In this document: one piece after another, positions 46,284 to 56,725 of the stretch
Position numbering within the stretch: position 1 is the stretch's first letter
Layout of the letters: each line of letters opens with the position of its first letter
Assembly: GCF_014202335.1 (NCBI RefSeq)
Contig: NZ_JACHGP010000002.1
Coordinates: 620,001 to 684,000, forward strand
Direction of reading: 5' to 3'
From: Mycobacterium sp. AZCC_0083
GTDB taxonomy: Bacteria > Actinomycetota > Actinomycetes > Mycobacteriales > Mycobacteriaceae
Length of the DNA: 64,000 nt
The notes under the pieces: model-generated
What the model saw: the letters and a program-made list of their open reading frames with translations, nothing else
What the model was told of the DNA's origin: nothing
Databases searched by the model: none
Translations under genes and position numbers: made by a program

Positions 46284-46302
<19 letters not shown>
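45478..46302 (+). CDS. NmrA-like atypical SDR
   Basis: A 274-residue protein with the Rossmann motif [12 protein letters not shown] near residues 5-16 and the NmrA-type [10 protein letters not shown] after the second strand; no YxxxK is evident. Members bind NAD(P) and act as quinone reductases or redox-responsive regulators. It overlaps the metH end by 19 nt. Confidence 0.85.
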
Positions 46303-50033
<3,731 letters not shown>

Positions 50034-50039
50034 GTGCGT

Positions 50040-50135
50040 CCTTCCATAACGGAAGGCGTCCTTAACTCTGCCGAGCGTGGCGGATACCGGAAGGGGACTG
50101 GCCCCCCCAACTAACCGTTGCAACGCCTCTCGACC
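50040..50135 (-). promoter_or_regulatory. SAH riboswitch with SD-sequestering hairpin
   Basis: On the minus strand the leader contains GAGAGGCGTTGCAACGG and CACGCTCGGC, the conserved blocks of SAH aptamers. P1 pairs 50129-50134 with 50070-50075 (six pairs, one G-U). A hairpin lies at 50093-50106. The pseudoknot pairs AGGCGU (50123-50128) with ACGCCU (50054-50059). CCUUCC (50051-50056) can instead pair with the Shine-Dalgarno GGAAGG (50040-50045). The two helices share 50054-50056, so SAH binding should free the ribosome-binding site and turn metH on, as known for this class. Confidence 0.75.
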
Positions 50136-50179
50136 AGAAAAGTCTACGTCGTCACCCGACATCTGGACGCCCAGCTCGA

Positions 50180-50370
50180 CCCGACCCGCATGGCGACCGC
50201 GGCGCCCTTGAGCACCAGCTCGGGGATCTTGTCGGCAATGTCATAGTTACCAAGGTTAACGAGATTGCAGCCGAACGTGTTTCGTCTCAACCGCGTCAGC
50301 GCCGGTTGTCGTCGAGGGTGAGGTCGGCATCGTGCAGCTGGGTACCCATTGCGCCATCGCCCACCACCAA
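50180..50370 (-). pseudogene. Fragment of a second, M. tuberculosis-type metH
   Basis: Minus-strand translation from 50370 gives LVVGDGAMGTQLHDADLTLD, then a stop; overlapping at 50303 it continues as GADAVET, then after one extra A at 50281-50282 as [20 protein letters not shown] and on to about 50180. These blocks correspond in order to about residues 20-40 and 70-105 of the M. tuberculosis-type MetH, with about 30 codons deleted between them. It is clearly non-functional. The promoter of the present metH must lie in or near it. Confidence 0.82.
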
Positions 50371-50438: not shown

Positions 50439-51299
50439 GTGACAGACCTGCCCAAACTGCACGACACGATCATCGTGGCGGCCTTCGAGGGCTGGAACGA
50501 CGCCGGTGACGCCGCCAGTGACGCGCTCGAGCACCTCGACGCCATCTGGGAGGCCGAGACGCTCGTGGAGATCGATGACGAGGCCTATTACGACTATCAG
50601 GTGAACCGCCCCGTGATCCGTCAGATCGACGGCGTCACCCGTGAGCTGGTGTGGCCGTCGATGCGCATATCGCACTGCCGCCCGCCTGGCAGCGAGCGCG
50701 ACATCGTGTTGATGCACGGCGTCGAGCCCAACATGCGGTGGAGGACGTTCTGCGCGGAGCTGCTGGCGATCGCCGACAAGCTGAACGTGGACACCGTGGT
50801 GATCCTCGGGGCACTGCTGGCCGACACGCCGCACACCCGGCCCGTTCCGGTCTCCGGCGCCGCCTACTCCCCCGAGTCGGCCAAGTTCTTCGGCCTTGAG
50901 GAAACCCGCTACGAAGGGCCGACGGGCATCGCCGGGGTGTTCCAGGACGCCTGCGTGGCTGCCGGAATCCCCGCGGTGACGTTCTGGGCCGCGGTTCCGC
51001 ACTACGTGTCGCAGCCGCCGAACCCGAAGGCCACCGTCGCACTGCTCCGGCGCGTCGAGGACGTGCTCGACATCGAGGTGCCGCTCGCCAACCTGCCGAC
51101 GGAGGCCGAGGAGTGGGAGCTGGCGGTCACCGAGATGACCGGTGAGGACGAGGAGATCGCCGAGTACGTGCAGTCGCTCGAGGAGCGCGGCGACGCCGAG
51201 GTCGACATGACCGAGGCGCTCGGCAAGATCGACGGTGACGCGCTGGCCGCGGAGTTCGAGCGTTACCTGCGCCGCCGCGGTCCCGGGTTCAGGAGCTGA
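50439..51299 (+). CDS. PAC2-family protein (Rv2125 type)
   Basis: A 286-residue protein with the PAC2 opening IIVAAFEGWNDAGDAASDAL and the later AAVPHYVSQPPNPKATVALL, plus an acidic helical tail. The family is named after a eukaryotic proteasome assembly chaperone, and it occurs in actinobacteria that carry the 20S proteasome, but a role in assembly of PrcAB is not established. It is next to metH as in M. tuberculosis. GTG 50439 is supported by the -10 box. Confidence 0.88.
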   Translation: MTDLPKLHDTIIVAAFEGWNDAGDAASDALEHLDAIWEAETLVEIDDEAYYDYQVNRPVIRQIDGVTRELVWPSMRISHCRPPGSERDIVLMHGVEPNMRWRTFCAELLAIADKLNVDTVVILGALLADTPHTRPVPVSGAAYSPESAKFFGLEETRYEGPTGIAGVFQDACVAAGIPAVTFWAAVPHYVSQPPNPKATVALLRRVEDVLDIEVPLANLPTEAEEWELAVTEMTGEDEEIAEYVQSLEERGDAEVDMTEALGKIDGDALAAEFERYLRRRGPGFRS

Positions 51300-53957: not shown

Positions 53958-55196
53958 TTACAGCGCGATGCCCAGCAATGCGTCGACGGCGGCCGCGACG
54001 GCCCGTGGCGCGTCGGTATCGTGTCCGCCGTAATCGAGCGCGTCGGTGCTCCAACCATCCAGTGCAGCAATTGCTTTCGGCGTGTCGAGGTCGTCGGCAA
54101 GGTACTGGCGCACGCGCGCGATCACATCGGCGGCGTCGGGCCCTGCGGGCAGCGTCGTCGCAGCCCGCCAGCGCGCCAGCCGGGTCTGCGCCTCGGCGAG
54201 CACGGCGTCGCTCCAGTACCGGTCGGAACGGTAGTGCCCGGCCAGCAGGCCGAGCCGGATGGCTGCTGGCTCGACGCCGTCGGCGCGCAGCCGGGACACC
54301 AGCACCAGGTTGCCGCGGCTCTTGCTCATCTTGTGGCCGTCCCAGCCGATCATGCCCGAATGCACGTAGTGGCGGGCGAATCGTCGCTCCCCCGTTACGG
54401 ATTCGGCGTGCGCTGCGGAGAACTCGTGATGCGGGAAGATCAGATCGCTACCGCCGCCCTGGATGTCCAGATCGGTGCCGATGCGGCTGAGTGCGATCGC
54501 GGAGCATTCGACGTGCCAGCCGGGACGGCCTTGGCCGAATGGCGACGGCCAGCTGGGCTCGCCGGGCCGCTCGGCGCGCCACAGCAGCGCGTCCAGCTCA
54601 TCACCCTTGCCCGCGCGGTCCGGGTCGCCGCCCCGCTCGCTGAACAACCGCAGCATGGTGTCGCGGTCGTAGCCCGACTCGTAGCCGAACTGCGGCGTGG
54701 CATCGGCGCGAAAGTACACATCCGGGTACTCGGCGTCGTCGACGACGTAGGCGGCACCGGAGGCCAATAGCTTCTCGACCAGTTCCACCACCTCGGCGAT
54801 GGCCTCGGTGGCCGCGACGTAGTCGTGCGGCGGCAGCACCCGCAGCGCCGTCATGTCCTCGCGGAAGAGTTGGGTCTGCCGGTCGCCGAGCTCGCGCCAA
54901 TCCACCCCGTCCCGGTTGGCCCGCTCGAACAGCGGGTCGTCGACGTCGGTGACGTTCTGCACGTAGTGCACGCCGTGCCCCGAGTCCAGCCACAACCGAT
55001 AGATCAGGTCGAAGGACAGGTAGGTGGCCGCGTGACCGAGGTGAGTGGCGTCGTACGGCGTGATGCCACAGACGTACATGGTGGCCGTCTGGCCTGCCGA
55101 CACGGGACGGACTTGGCGGTCGGCGCTGTCGTAGAGGCGCAATTGAGGGCCCTGCCCGGGAAGCTCCGGGACGCTCGGCGCCGGCCACGATTGCAT
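53958..55196 (-). CDS. mshC: Mycothiol cysteine ligase MshC
   Basis: A 412-residue class I synthetase-like enzyme: zinc-binding [17 protein letters not shown] containing the HIGH-like signature, [14 protein letters not shown], and HKMSKSRGN. It joins cysteine to GlcN-inositol in mycothiol synthesis, paralogous to cysteinyl-tRNA synthetase but lacking the anticodon domain. ATG 55196 has a -10 box TAGAGT 7 nt upstream. Confidence 0.96.
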
Positions 55197-55203
55197 GGCG
55201 TCG

Positions 55204-55209
55204 ACTCTA
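55204..55209 (-). promoter_or_regulatory. -10 box for leaderless mshC
   Basis: TAGAGT on the minus strand, then 7 nt (CGACGCC) and ATG 55196. Confidence 0.5.
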
Positions 55210-55293
55210 GGGTGTGCGATCAGAACGTCCTCCAAATGGTGCGTCATCGAGTGATGCGACAACGGTGACGCCGATTACATTCCCGGGGTCTGG

Positions 55294-56049
55294 TTAGAAC
55301 AGCGACCGGATCGCGTCGAGAAGTGTCTTGGACAGCTCCGAACGGCACATGACGAAGTCGGGAAGGTACGGATCACGCCGGTTGTAAAGCAACGGCGATC
55401 CGTCCAGCCGCGACGCATGCAGCCCGGCCGCCTGCACCACGGCCGACGGCGCGGCGGAGTCCCATTCCCACTGTCCGCCCGCGTGCACATAGGCATCGAC
55501 GTCGCCGCGGACGACGGCCATCGCCTTGGCACCGGCCGATCCGATGCCGATCAGCTCGATGTCGAGCATGTCGCGCAGGTACCACAGCACCGTCGGGGGA
55601 CGGCTGGTGCTCGTCGCGATCCGGATCGGGCCCGGCGTGCGCGGCGGGGGTGGCTCGACGGTGTCAGTGCGGTACACCTCGCCGACGGCAGGCAGGCCGA
55701 CCGCGGCATCGGTGATGGCGCCGTCGGCGCCGCCGCTGCGCTGCCACAGGGCGATGTGCACGGCCCAATCGCTGTGGCCGCGCAACGAGAACTCCCTGGT
55801 GCCGTCTACGGGGTCGACGATCCACACGCGGTCGGCGCGCACCCGGGACAGGTCGTCGGCGGCCTCCTCGGACAACACCGCGTCGTCGGGGCGCTCCTCC
55901 TTGAGGCGATCCAGAATCAGCGTGTTGGCGCGGCGATCACCCTCGTCGCCGAGGTCGTACGGGTCGGAGTAACCGATCTCCTCGCGCACCGCCAGCAGCA
56001 ACTCACCGGCTTCACTAGCCACCTGCGCGGCAAGCGCCGCGTCGGTCAC
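55294..56049 (-). CDS. cysQ: 3'-phosphoadenosine 5'-phosphate phosphatase CysQ
   Basis: A 251-residue inositol-monophosphatase-fold enzyme: SEEAADD, metal-binding [12 protein letters not shown] and C-terminal [11 protein letters not shown]. It removes the 3' phosphate from PAP or PAPS and so balances sulfate assimilation. GTG 56049 begins the fold. It lies between mshC and a GNAT-domain gene on one strand. Confidence 0.93.
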
Positions 56050-56059
56050 GCGGGCTCGG

Positions 56060-56725
56060 TCACTTGGGCTCGGCACCGGGCGCGCGGACGACCATCGGGA
56101 CGGCGGGGAAGTACGCCGCAATCTCCGATCGGCTCCGGCGCAGCGCTGCCGTGCCGAAACCGCGGTGGCGGTGGTCCGGGTGAATCCAAATCCGGACGTT
56201 GACCTCGCCGCCGAGGAGCTCACCGAAGACCATGCCGACCTTGTCGCTGCCCTCCTCCGCGACGAACCACACCGCCTCCTCGGCGGACACTCGCCCTAGC
56301 GCGGCGCTGATCTCGTCGTCGATGTTGCCCGCGGGTGCACCCGAGCCGTCGCCCTTGGCGCCGACGTCGCTGGTGCGGGCGCCGAAGATGTCACGGTCGG
56401 CCTCGCCAGAGAAGAGCCGAAGCACGAGGCTCTCCCCCGAGCTGGCCGGGCGATCGCCGAGAGTGAAGCTGAGCTGCTTGTTCAGGTCCTCGAGCTCGTT
56501 GGCGATCTTGCGGCGCGAGTCCTTGGTGAGTTGGGTGAACGACATCGCCATCACGGCTTCTCCGCCAAGGCGTGACGTCTCGAGCAGCGTCGAGATCGCC
56601 TCGACGGCGGCGGCCTTGTCGTCGGCCTCGACGATCACGTCGAGCACCTCGTGCCTGCGGTCGAGCGCCTTCAGGAGGGCATCGGTGATCTCGCGGCGGG
56701 CGGCGGCCCGATCGTGTTCGGTCAT
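56060..56725 (-). CDS. GNAT-like protein with N-terminal gyrase-A-like helical region
   Basis: A 221-residue protein. Residues 1-90 are helical and read like the GyrA/ParC tower: [20 protein letters not shown], then [20 protein letters not shown]. Residues 130-215 form a GNAT-type domain with [20 protein letters not shown] as the CoA-binding motif. It lies 10 nt upstream of cysQ. Substrate is unknown; the N-terminal resemblance could reflect shared helical geometry rather than ancestry. Confidence 0.78.

Follow-up and report, generated by a model that had tools for sequence, protein, structure and literature searches.

SAH riboswitches are a class with ON behaviour, reportedly first described by Wang and colleagues in 2008. 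The genes considered here resemble those of the SAH riboswitch regulon of Proteobacteria (PMC4239095), which has a core of ahcY and metF and includes metH in Comamonadaceae; they differ from it in that the available part of that study deals with Proteobacteria only, and adenosine deaminase is not mentioned there. SAH riboswitches have also been identified in Mycobacteriaceae, a finding taken to point to horizontal transfer (Sun 2013, PMC3766115); the accessible portion of that paper specifies neither a gene nor an expression platform, and reports no covariation and no connection with native metH. The exchange of methionine synthases in actinomycetes is on record as well (Young 2015, PMC4428469). 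In the sections of that paper at hand, most rapid growers are reported to carry a conventional MetH in the site of MetHa, beside ML1306 (the name of this type of neighbour is adopted from there), and M. marinum and Frankia to retain a fragment of MetHa; the paper does not settle why the exchange took place, and neither SAH nor S-adenosylhomocysteine occurs in the main text, as far as it is available. The same holds for SAH in the available text of a study on metH and metE regulation in M. smegmatis (PMC8088520). Nothing joining the SAH riboswitch with the MetH exchange, or describing the mycobacterial switch, was found in the open-access literature, nor any paper pairing the SAH riboswitch with adenosine deaminase. 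The riboswitch in Mycobacteriaceae and the MetH exchange are each already published; what is apparently new is the link between them, and adenosine deaminase as a target.

The metH leader analysed here (50137-50033, minus strand) has the layout of a SAH riboswitch, and most probably turns metH translation on upon SAH accumulation, as far as can be predicted from its sequence. It is similar to the Rfam family RF01057 in P1, P2, core letters, pseudoknot and place upstream of SAH-cycle genes. It differs in scoring under the family cut-off, in having other pseudoknot letters with the pairs kept, and in its long P2.

Layout of the metH leader

The open frame at 46284..50033 on the minus strand, metH, starts with GTG and encodes a conventional (E. 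coli-type) cobalamin-dependent methionine synthase; the product matches the NCBIfam metH model TIGR02082 with 1715 bits and NF007024 with 2129 bits. All leader features listed hereafter are on the same strand. The conserved core blocks GAGAGGCGTTGCAACGG and CACGCTCGGC are located at 50131-50115 and 50079-50070, respectively. P1 results from the pairing of GUCGAG (50129..50134) with CUCGGC (50070..50075), and has six pairs, one of which is U-G. The pseudoknot strands AGGCGUU (50122..50128) and GACGCCU (50054..50060) form seven pairs, six of them Watson-Crick (50128-50123 with 50059-50054) and the last an extra U-G between 50122 and 50060. P2 (50081..50117) is closed at its base by CGG (50117-50115) and CCG (50083-50081), and has a long, G-rich apical part.

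The Shine-Dalgarno (SD) sequence GGAAGG (50040..50045) is separated by six bases from the GTG (50033-50031), which is in the metH frame. All but one of the 140 genus leaders read GGAAGG there, the exception being GGAGGG. The anti-SD strand CCUUCC (50051..50056) can form six pairs with the SD (50045-50040). The last three bases of the pseudoknot 3' strand, 50056-50054, double as anti-SD, so that the two helices are mutually exclusive. Upstream, a -10-like element, TAGACT, is found at 50141..50146. A TANNNT motif is located 8-10 nt upstream of the core in 140 of 140 genus leaders, against a shuffled rate of 8%, and 7-15 nt upstream of it in 82 of 120 loci outside the genus, among the matches listed. 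Given this position, transcription would begin at P1, with a start near 50134.

The earlier note on this DNA had described the core blocks within 50040-50135, a P1 and a pseudoknot of six pairs each, and three bases common to the pseudoknot strand and the strand sequestering GGAAGG. Each of these was found in place on the minus strand, the pseudoknot being one U-G pair longer. The presence of a riboswitch layout before metH is hence confirmed; its interpretation as a SAH riboswitch with an anti-SD switch is supported, ligand and direction being predicted.

That RF01057 would match the leader was also implied by the earlier note. A match was obtained, and its extent (50047..50137) is taken here as that of the aptamer, but the score of 25.7 bits is under the Rfam cut-off of 37 (E 0.011). 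In 551 bases around the site this was the sole match among 4227 Rfam families at E up to 10, and at E up to 1 the metH leader was the only RF01057 match in the 8.6-Mb genome (E 0.04). No match was returned by the genome scan at E 0.001, and no family matched the window (the whole 64-kb stretch of DNA analysed) at the Rfam gathering thresholds. Similarly, 269 of 297 genomes of the genus have a RF01057 match at E up to 1, and none of the 297 sampled reaches the cut-off, which is a database reporting threshold and not a structural trait. The 30 best genus matches are all located directly upstream of metH. In the RF01057 alignment, the pseudoknot strands are AGGCGUU/GACGCCU here and GAGCGCU/GGCGCUC in the printed consensus, every pair being kept. 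The structure line of the Rfam model lacks the pseudoknot pairs, and matched changes in the two strands would thus be penalised twice, which likely explains the sub-threshold score. The long P2 insert may add its own cost.

Conservation and pairing in the genus and beyond

The 140 genus leaders come from 139 genomes (138 distinct), since two of them (L012 and L046) share one genome. Half were picked by RF01057, and the other 70 by MetH protein alone, through the 30 best matches and 40 lower rows; only the latter 70 are free of motif selection. Core blocks, pseudoknot partner and anti-SD are present in 140 of 140. The core is near invariant and P2 is freely variable, with loops of 9-40 nt. Only one leader has a changed pseudoknot, by an A-to-G substitution that maintains pairing. 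One P1 pair varies, being U-G in 121, U-A in 11 and C-G in 8 leaders. An insertion separates P1 from the pseudoknot strand in one leader (L097:123-225), where the remaining parts are intact.

Forty-four of the 140 leaders, having P2 loops of 18-22 nt, were aligned (alignment A1; L001 and L097 were left out). The pseudoknot is identical in 44/44, and in 31 of 43 leaders the apical anti-SD pair is one of G-C, G-U, A-U and C-G. RNAalifold detected no two-sided change in this alignment, and picked a GGCG/CGCC helix over P2 and the pseudoknot. A covariance model made from the same 44 leaders (R1) gives the metH leader 88.5 bits and matches 265 of 297 genus genomes, or 251 of 275 if the better genomes are considered. 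No match was found with it in any of seven MetHa loci. In the family it matches 32 of 301 genomes: 28 are of the genus, three are strong matches in two other genera, also upstream of metH, and one is weak. There is therefore an annotation gap, as all 297 genus genomes are under the Rfam cut-off, yet 265 of them hold the element.

Inside the genus P1 and pseudoknot vary too little for a test of covariation, the pseudoknot being mute on its pairing, and leaders from the whole class were aligned for this reason. In other actinobacteria the conventional MetH is 70-87% or about 56% identical to the product of this metH, and the native type about 36%. A RF01057 match within about 200 bases upstream of metH is present in 11 of 39 such genomes, corresponding to 5 of 33 with a MetH identity of 70-87% and to all six with about 56%. 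Three of the 39 exceed the Rfam cut-off, and the best (G611, 41.3 bits) has a MetH 87% identical. Named genomes were scanned in addition with a pattern in which both core blocks were fixed, C replaced the genus T in the pseudoknot strand, and pseudoknot partner and SD were left free. At least 120 loci were identified, in Amycolatopsis, Micromonospora, Actinoplanes, Frankia, Kribbella, Streptosporangium and Nocardia carnea, among others. The Rfam cut-off is passed by L201 and by 6 of 16 pattern loci, making 7 of the 17 class loci examined.

Though free in the pattern, the pseudoknot partner is GGCGCC in 113 of 118 loci among the matches listed, compared with 9.6% in shuffled sequences. Of the five partner readings other than G, two (L266 and L293) come from a match located upstream of the actual strand. 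The two of 120 pattern loci that lack the strict partner pattern read GTGCC, which still pairs. The class alignment (A2) includes 56 leaders, namely 14 from the genus, three from two other genera of the family, eight of L201-L210, and 31 of 34 chosen pattern loci. L262, L294 and L318 were not included; in L294 and L318 the anti-SD helices are short, a trait not counted in this alignment. Pairing is found in 99.7% of the pseudoknot cells, and in 94.5% of the cells of the whole structure, against 32-45% when the structure is slid. At the pseudoknot pair where the genus has U-A, the 56 leaders show C-G (36), U-A (19) and U-G (one), a change that may correspond to few events, because cells count sequences and not events. 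Several pair types occur at each of the three variable pairs next to the base of P2. Four of five measures are higher than in shuffled alignments (at most 4 of 500 shuffles are as high); pairs with two-sided changes, 6 against 5.1 in shuffles (135 of 500), are not above.

The anti-SD helix varies in a comparable manner, CCTTCC being associated with GGAAGG in the genus, and mostly CCTCC(C) with (G)GGAGG elsewhere. Its fourth pair is T-A in 139 genus leaders and T-G in one; in the 118 other loci among the matches listed it is C-G in 92, T-A in one, T-G in one, unreadable in six and C-A in 18, some of which may be register errors of the search expression. In 106 of the same 118 actinobacterial loci the pseudoknot strand is overlapped by an anti-SD helix with a minimum of five pairs, against 7% when downstream sequences are shuffled; by this test the helix is absent in 12. 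The overlap of pseudoknot and anti-SD is thus a class-wide design, and the mycobacterial platform, called unusually clear in the earlier note, is not peculiar to mycobacteria. Covariation among related mycobacteria, to which the note had also appealed, did not emerge for the pseudoknot, near-invariant in the genus (139 of 140 identical), but matched changes are found class-wide in pseudoknot, P1, P2 and anti-SD. The comparative support for the predicted ON switch is strong.

The native MetHa site and the probable exchange of the gene

A decayed remnant of MetHa is recognizable at 50165..50370 on the minus strand (tblastn E 2.7e-16). The tract 50370-50281 corresponds to residues 21-50, and the tract 50290-50165 to residues 75-116; the frames are broken. 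The gene at 50448..51296 on the plus strand, which is Rv2125/ML1306-like, is a conserved neighbour of native metH: in all seven MetHa loci the gene preceding MetHa is a match to it. The remnants are interposed between this gene and the riboswitch. Downstream genes common to the window and the MetHa loci lie within 1.5 kb in three of the seven. The native MetH of these seven genus genomes is about 36% identical to the product of the metH under study. Ten of 60 loci, that of the window among them, retain recognizable pieces of MetHa. The locus has a conventional metH in the native site and has lost MetHa, as in MetH switching; this metH, together with its leader, appears to occupy the place of the native actinobacterial MetHa, the original gene being apparently displaced, a point absent from the earlier note. 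Further along the locus, on the minus strand at 53958-55262 and 55294-56223, are frames presumably resembling mshC and cysQ.

Native MetH (at least 86% identical to the query, one partial) was found in 24 of 297 genus genomes, and none of the 297 has both MetH types together. The riboswitch, as detected by the genus model, is present in 0 of 24 MetHa genomes vs 265 of the remaining 273, with the qualification that 12 of the 32 genomes having no match were assigned by absence from the match list. Six of the eight non-MetHa genomes with no match have no metH or a fragmentary one; G059 and G139, each in many contigs, have a conventional MetH and no match. As the riboswitch tracks the replacing metH and is absent from the 24 genomes keeping MetHa, the swap of the gene likely swapped its control too.

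In a tree of 50 MetH sequences, each represented by its first 480 residues, the 17 conventional sequences of the genus are found beside G611 (100/100), with a separate branch for the native type (100/100). Remnant, shared neighbours and tree together make it very likely that metH and its riboswitch were acquired jointly from another actinobacterium and inserted at the native site. Family f28 was considered as general donor and discarded, because among 24 of its genomes tested only G611 has a RF01057 match beside metH. Three sequences from two other genera of the family nest within the conventional group of the genus in the same tree. At these loci (L169, L170, L179) the element and its metH may result from a second, outward transfer.

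Proposed switch, alternative readings and sister genes

According to the mechanism proposed, in the absence of SAH the anti-SD helix would cover GGAAGG. SAH bound in the core would stabilise the pseudoknot, which would claim the three common bases; the ribosome site would then be free and MetH made, and the removal of SAH would thereby be coupled to remethylation of the resulting homocysteine. The predicted ON direction derives from the three-base overlap and from the behaviour of the class. In free folds of the 140 leaders the anti-SD helix has a mean probability of 0.95, and of 0.999 in the metH leader under study. Once the pseudoknot strands are occupied, the unpaired fraction of the SD rises on average from 0.02 to 0.43, being higher in 136 of 140 leaders, and from less than 0.001 to 0.28 in the metH leader; as the occupied strand includes the three anti-SD bases, the comparison is partly circular, and shows only that in the model the SD is not fully hidden again. 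Plain folds of the leader do not exceed those of shuffled sequences in stability (z 0.48 and -0.23), and folding energy was discarded as evidence. The GGCG/CGCC helix is a doubtful candidate for a defined OFF helix: it is present in the RNAalifold structure and in one window fold, but is improbable in longer transcripts, with a mean probability of 0.03.

The genes downstream of 120 loci, among the matches listed, are metH in 69 and ahcY in 38, followed by genes for adenosine deaminase (4) and MOSC-like products (4), with 5 unassigned. NCBIfam models confirm the assignment of one ahcY and of two adenosine deaminases. The element is accordingly found upstream of genes recycling or clearing SAH, metH at this locus, and metH, ahcY and adenosine deaminase at the sister loci. 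Adenosine deaminase is the enzyme removing the adenosine freed by SAH hydrolysis; its gene follows core and pseudoknot partner at L221, L240, L315 and L330.

Other readings of the leader have been weighed against a SAH-responsive ON switch. The frame is open from the ATG at 50162 through metH, and were this ATG the true start, the conservation would be that of an N-terminal extension. The lengths of the P2 loops in 140 relatives, however, leave remainders of 0, 1 and 2 in 48, 39 and 53 cases, which breaks the reading frame; GGAAGG and GTG are well spaced 3' of the aptamer, and the upstream end of the frame falls within the MetHa remnant. Loop lengths and placement of the start signals indicate a leader, and the coding reading can be dismissed as hardly conceivable. 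It is also very improbable that the riboswitch is a relic which hitchhiked with metH and is no longer functional. Arrival with a transferred gene and a score under the Rfam cut-off would suit such a fate, but the core is near invariant in all 140 leaders while P2 drifts, and the element is retained in 265 of the 273 genus genomes devoid of MetHa.

Several core letters depart from the Rfam consensus, and a genuine RNA fold whose core has drifted to a different ligand, SAM or a related compound, could be imagined. Many of the departing letters, though, fall in both pseudoknot strands with all pairs kept, and the neighbours across the class are SAH-removal genes, ahcY being second among them (38 of 120 among the matches listed); a change of ligand is improbable on these grounds. 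A SAH riboswitch with another output, acting through mRNA decay or transcription termination, or turning the gene OFF instead of ON, is unlikely. The GGCG/CGCC helix of RNAalifold and of one window fold could be a further state, but the anti-SD/pseudoknot overlap, shared by 106 of 118 other loci among the matches listed and by the 140 genus leaders, fits translational ON control.

If the SAH-responsive ON switch works as proposed, mycobacteria bearing it raise MetH upon SAH build-up, and those keeping MetHa have no such control at metH; the MetH exchange would gain a directly testable cause. It seems somewhat more probable than otherwise that MetH switching in mycobacteria changed the regulation no less than the enzyme, a SAH-sensor metH having displaced a sensorless MetHa, with remethylation following the SAH load, at the level of metH, only in riboswitch bearers, and that elsewhere in actinobacteria this sensor controls a SAH-clearing set composed of ahcY, metH and adenosine deaminase. 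With the latter as a target, the SAH regulon would also cover the second product released when SAH is hydrolysed.

Some genes behind the motif are of a different kind. The products at L289, L295, L312 and L334 have been named MOSC-like by our own assignment; the one tested has no NCBIfam match at E 1e-10, and no connection of these genes with SAH is evident. In Nocardia carnea (L254, 7747-7000) the product of the gene behind the motif, one of those left unassigned, is presumably, judging by a sequence motif, a SAM-dependent methyltransferase, a SAH producer.
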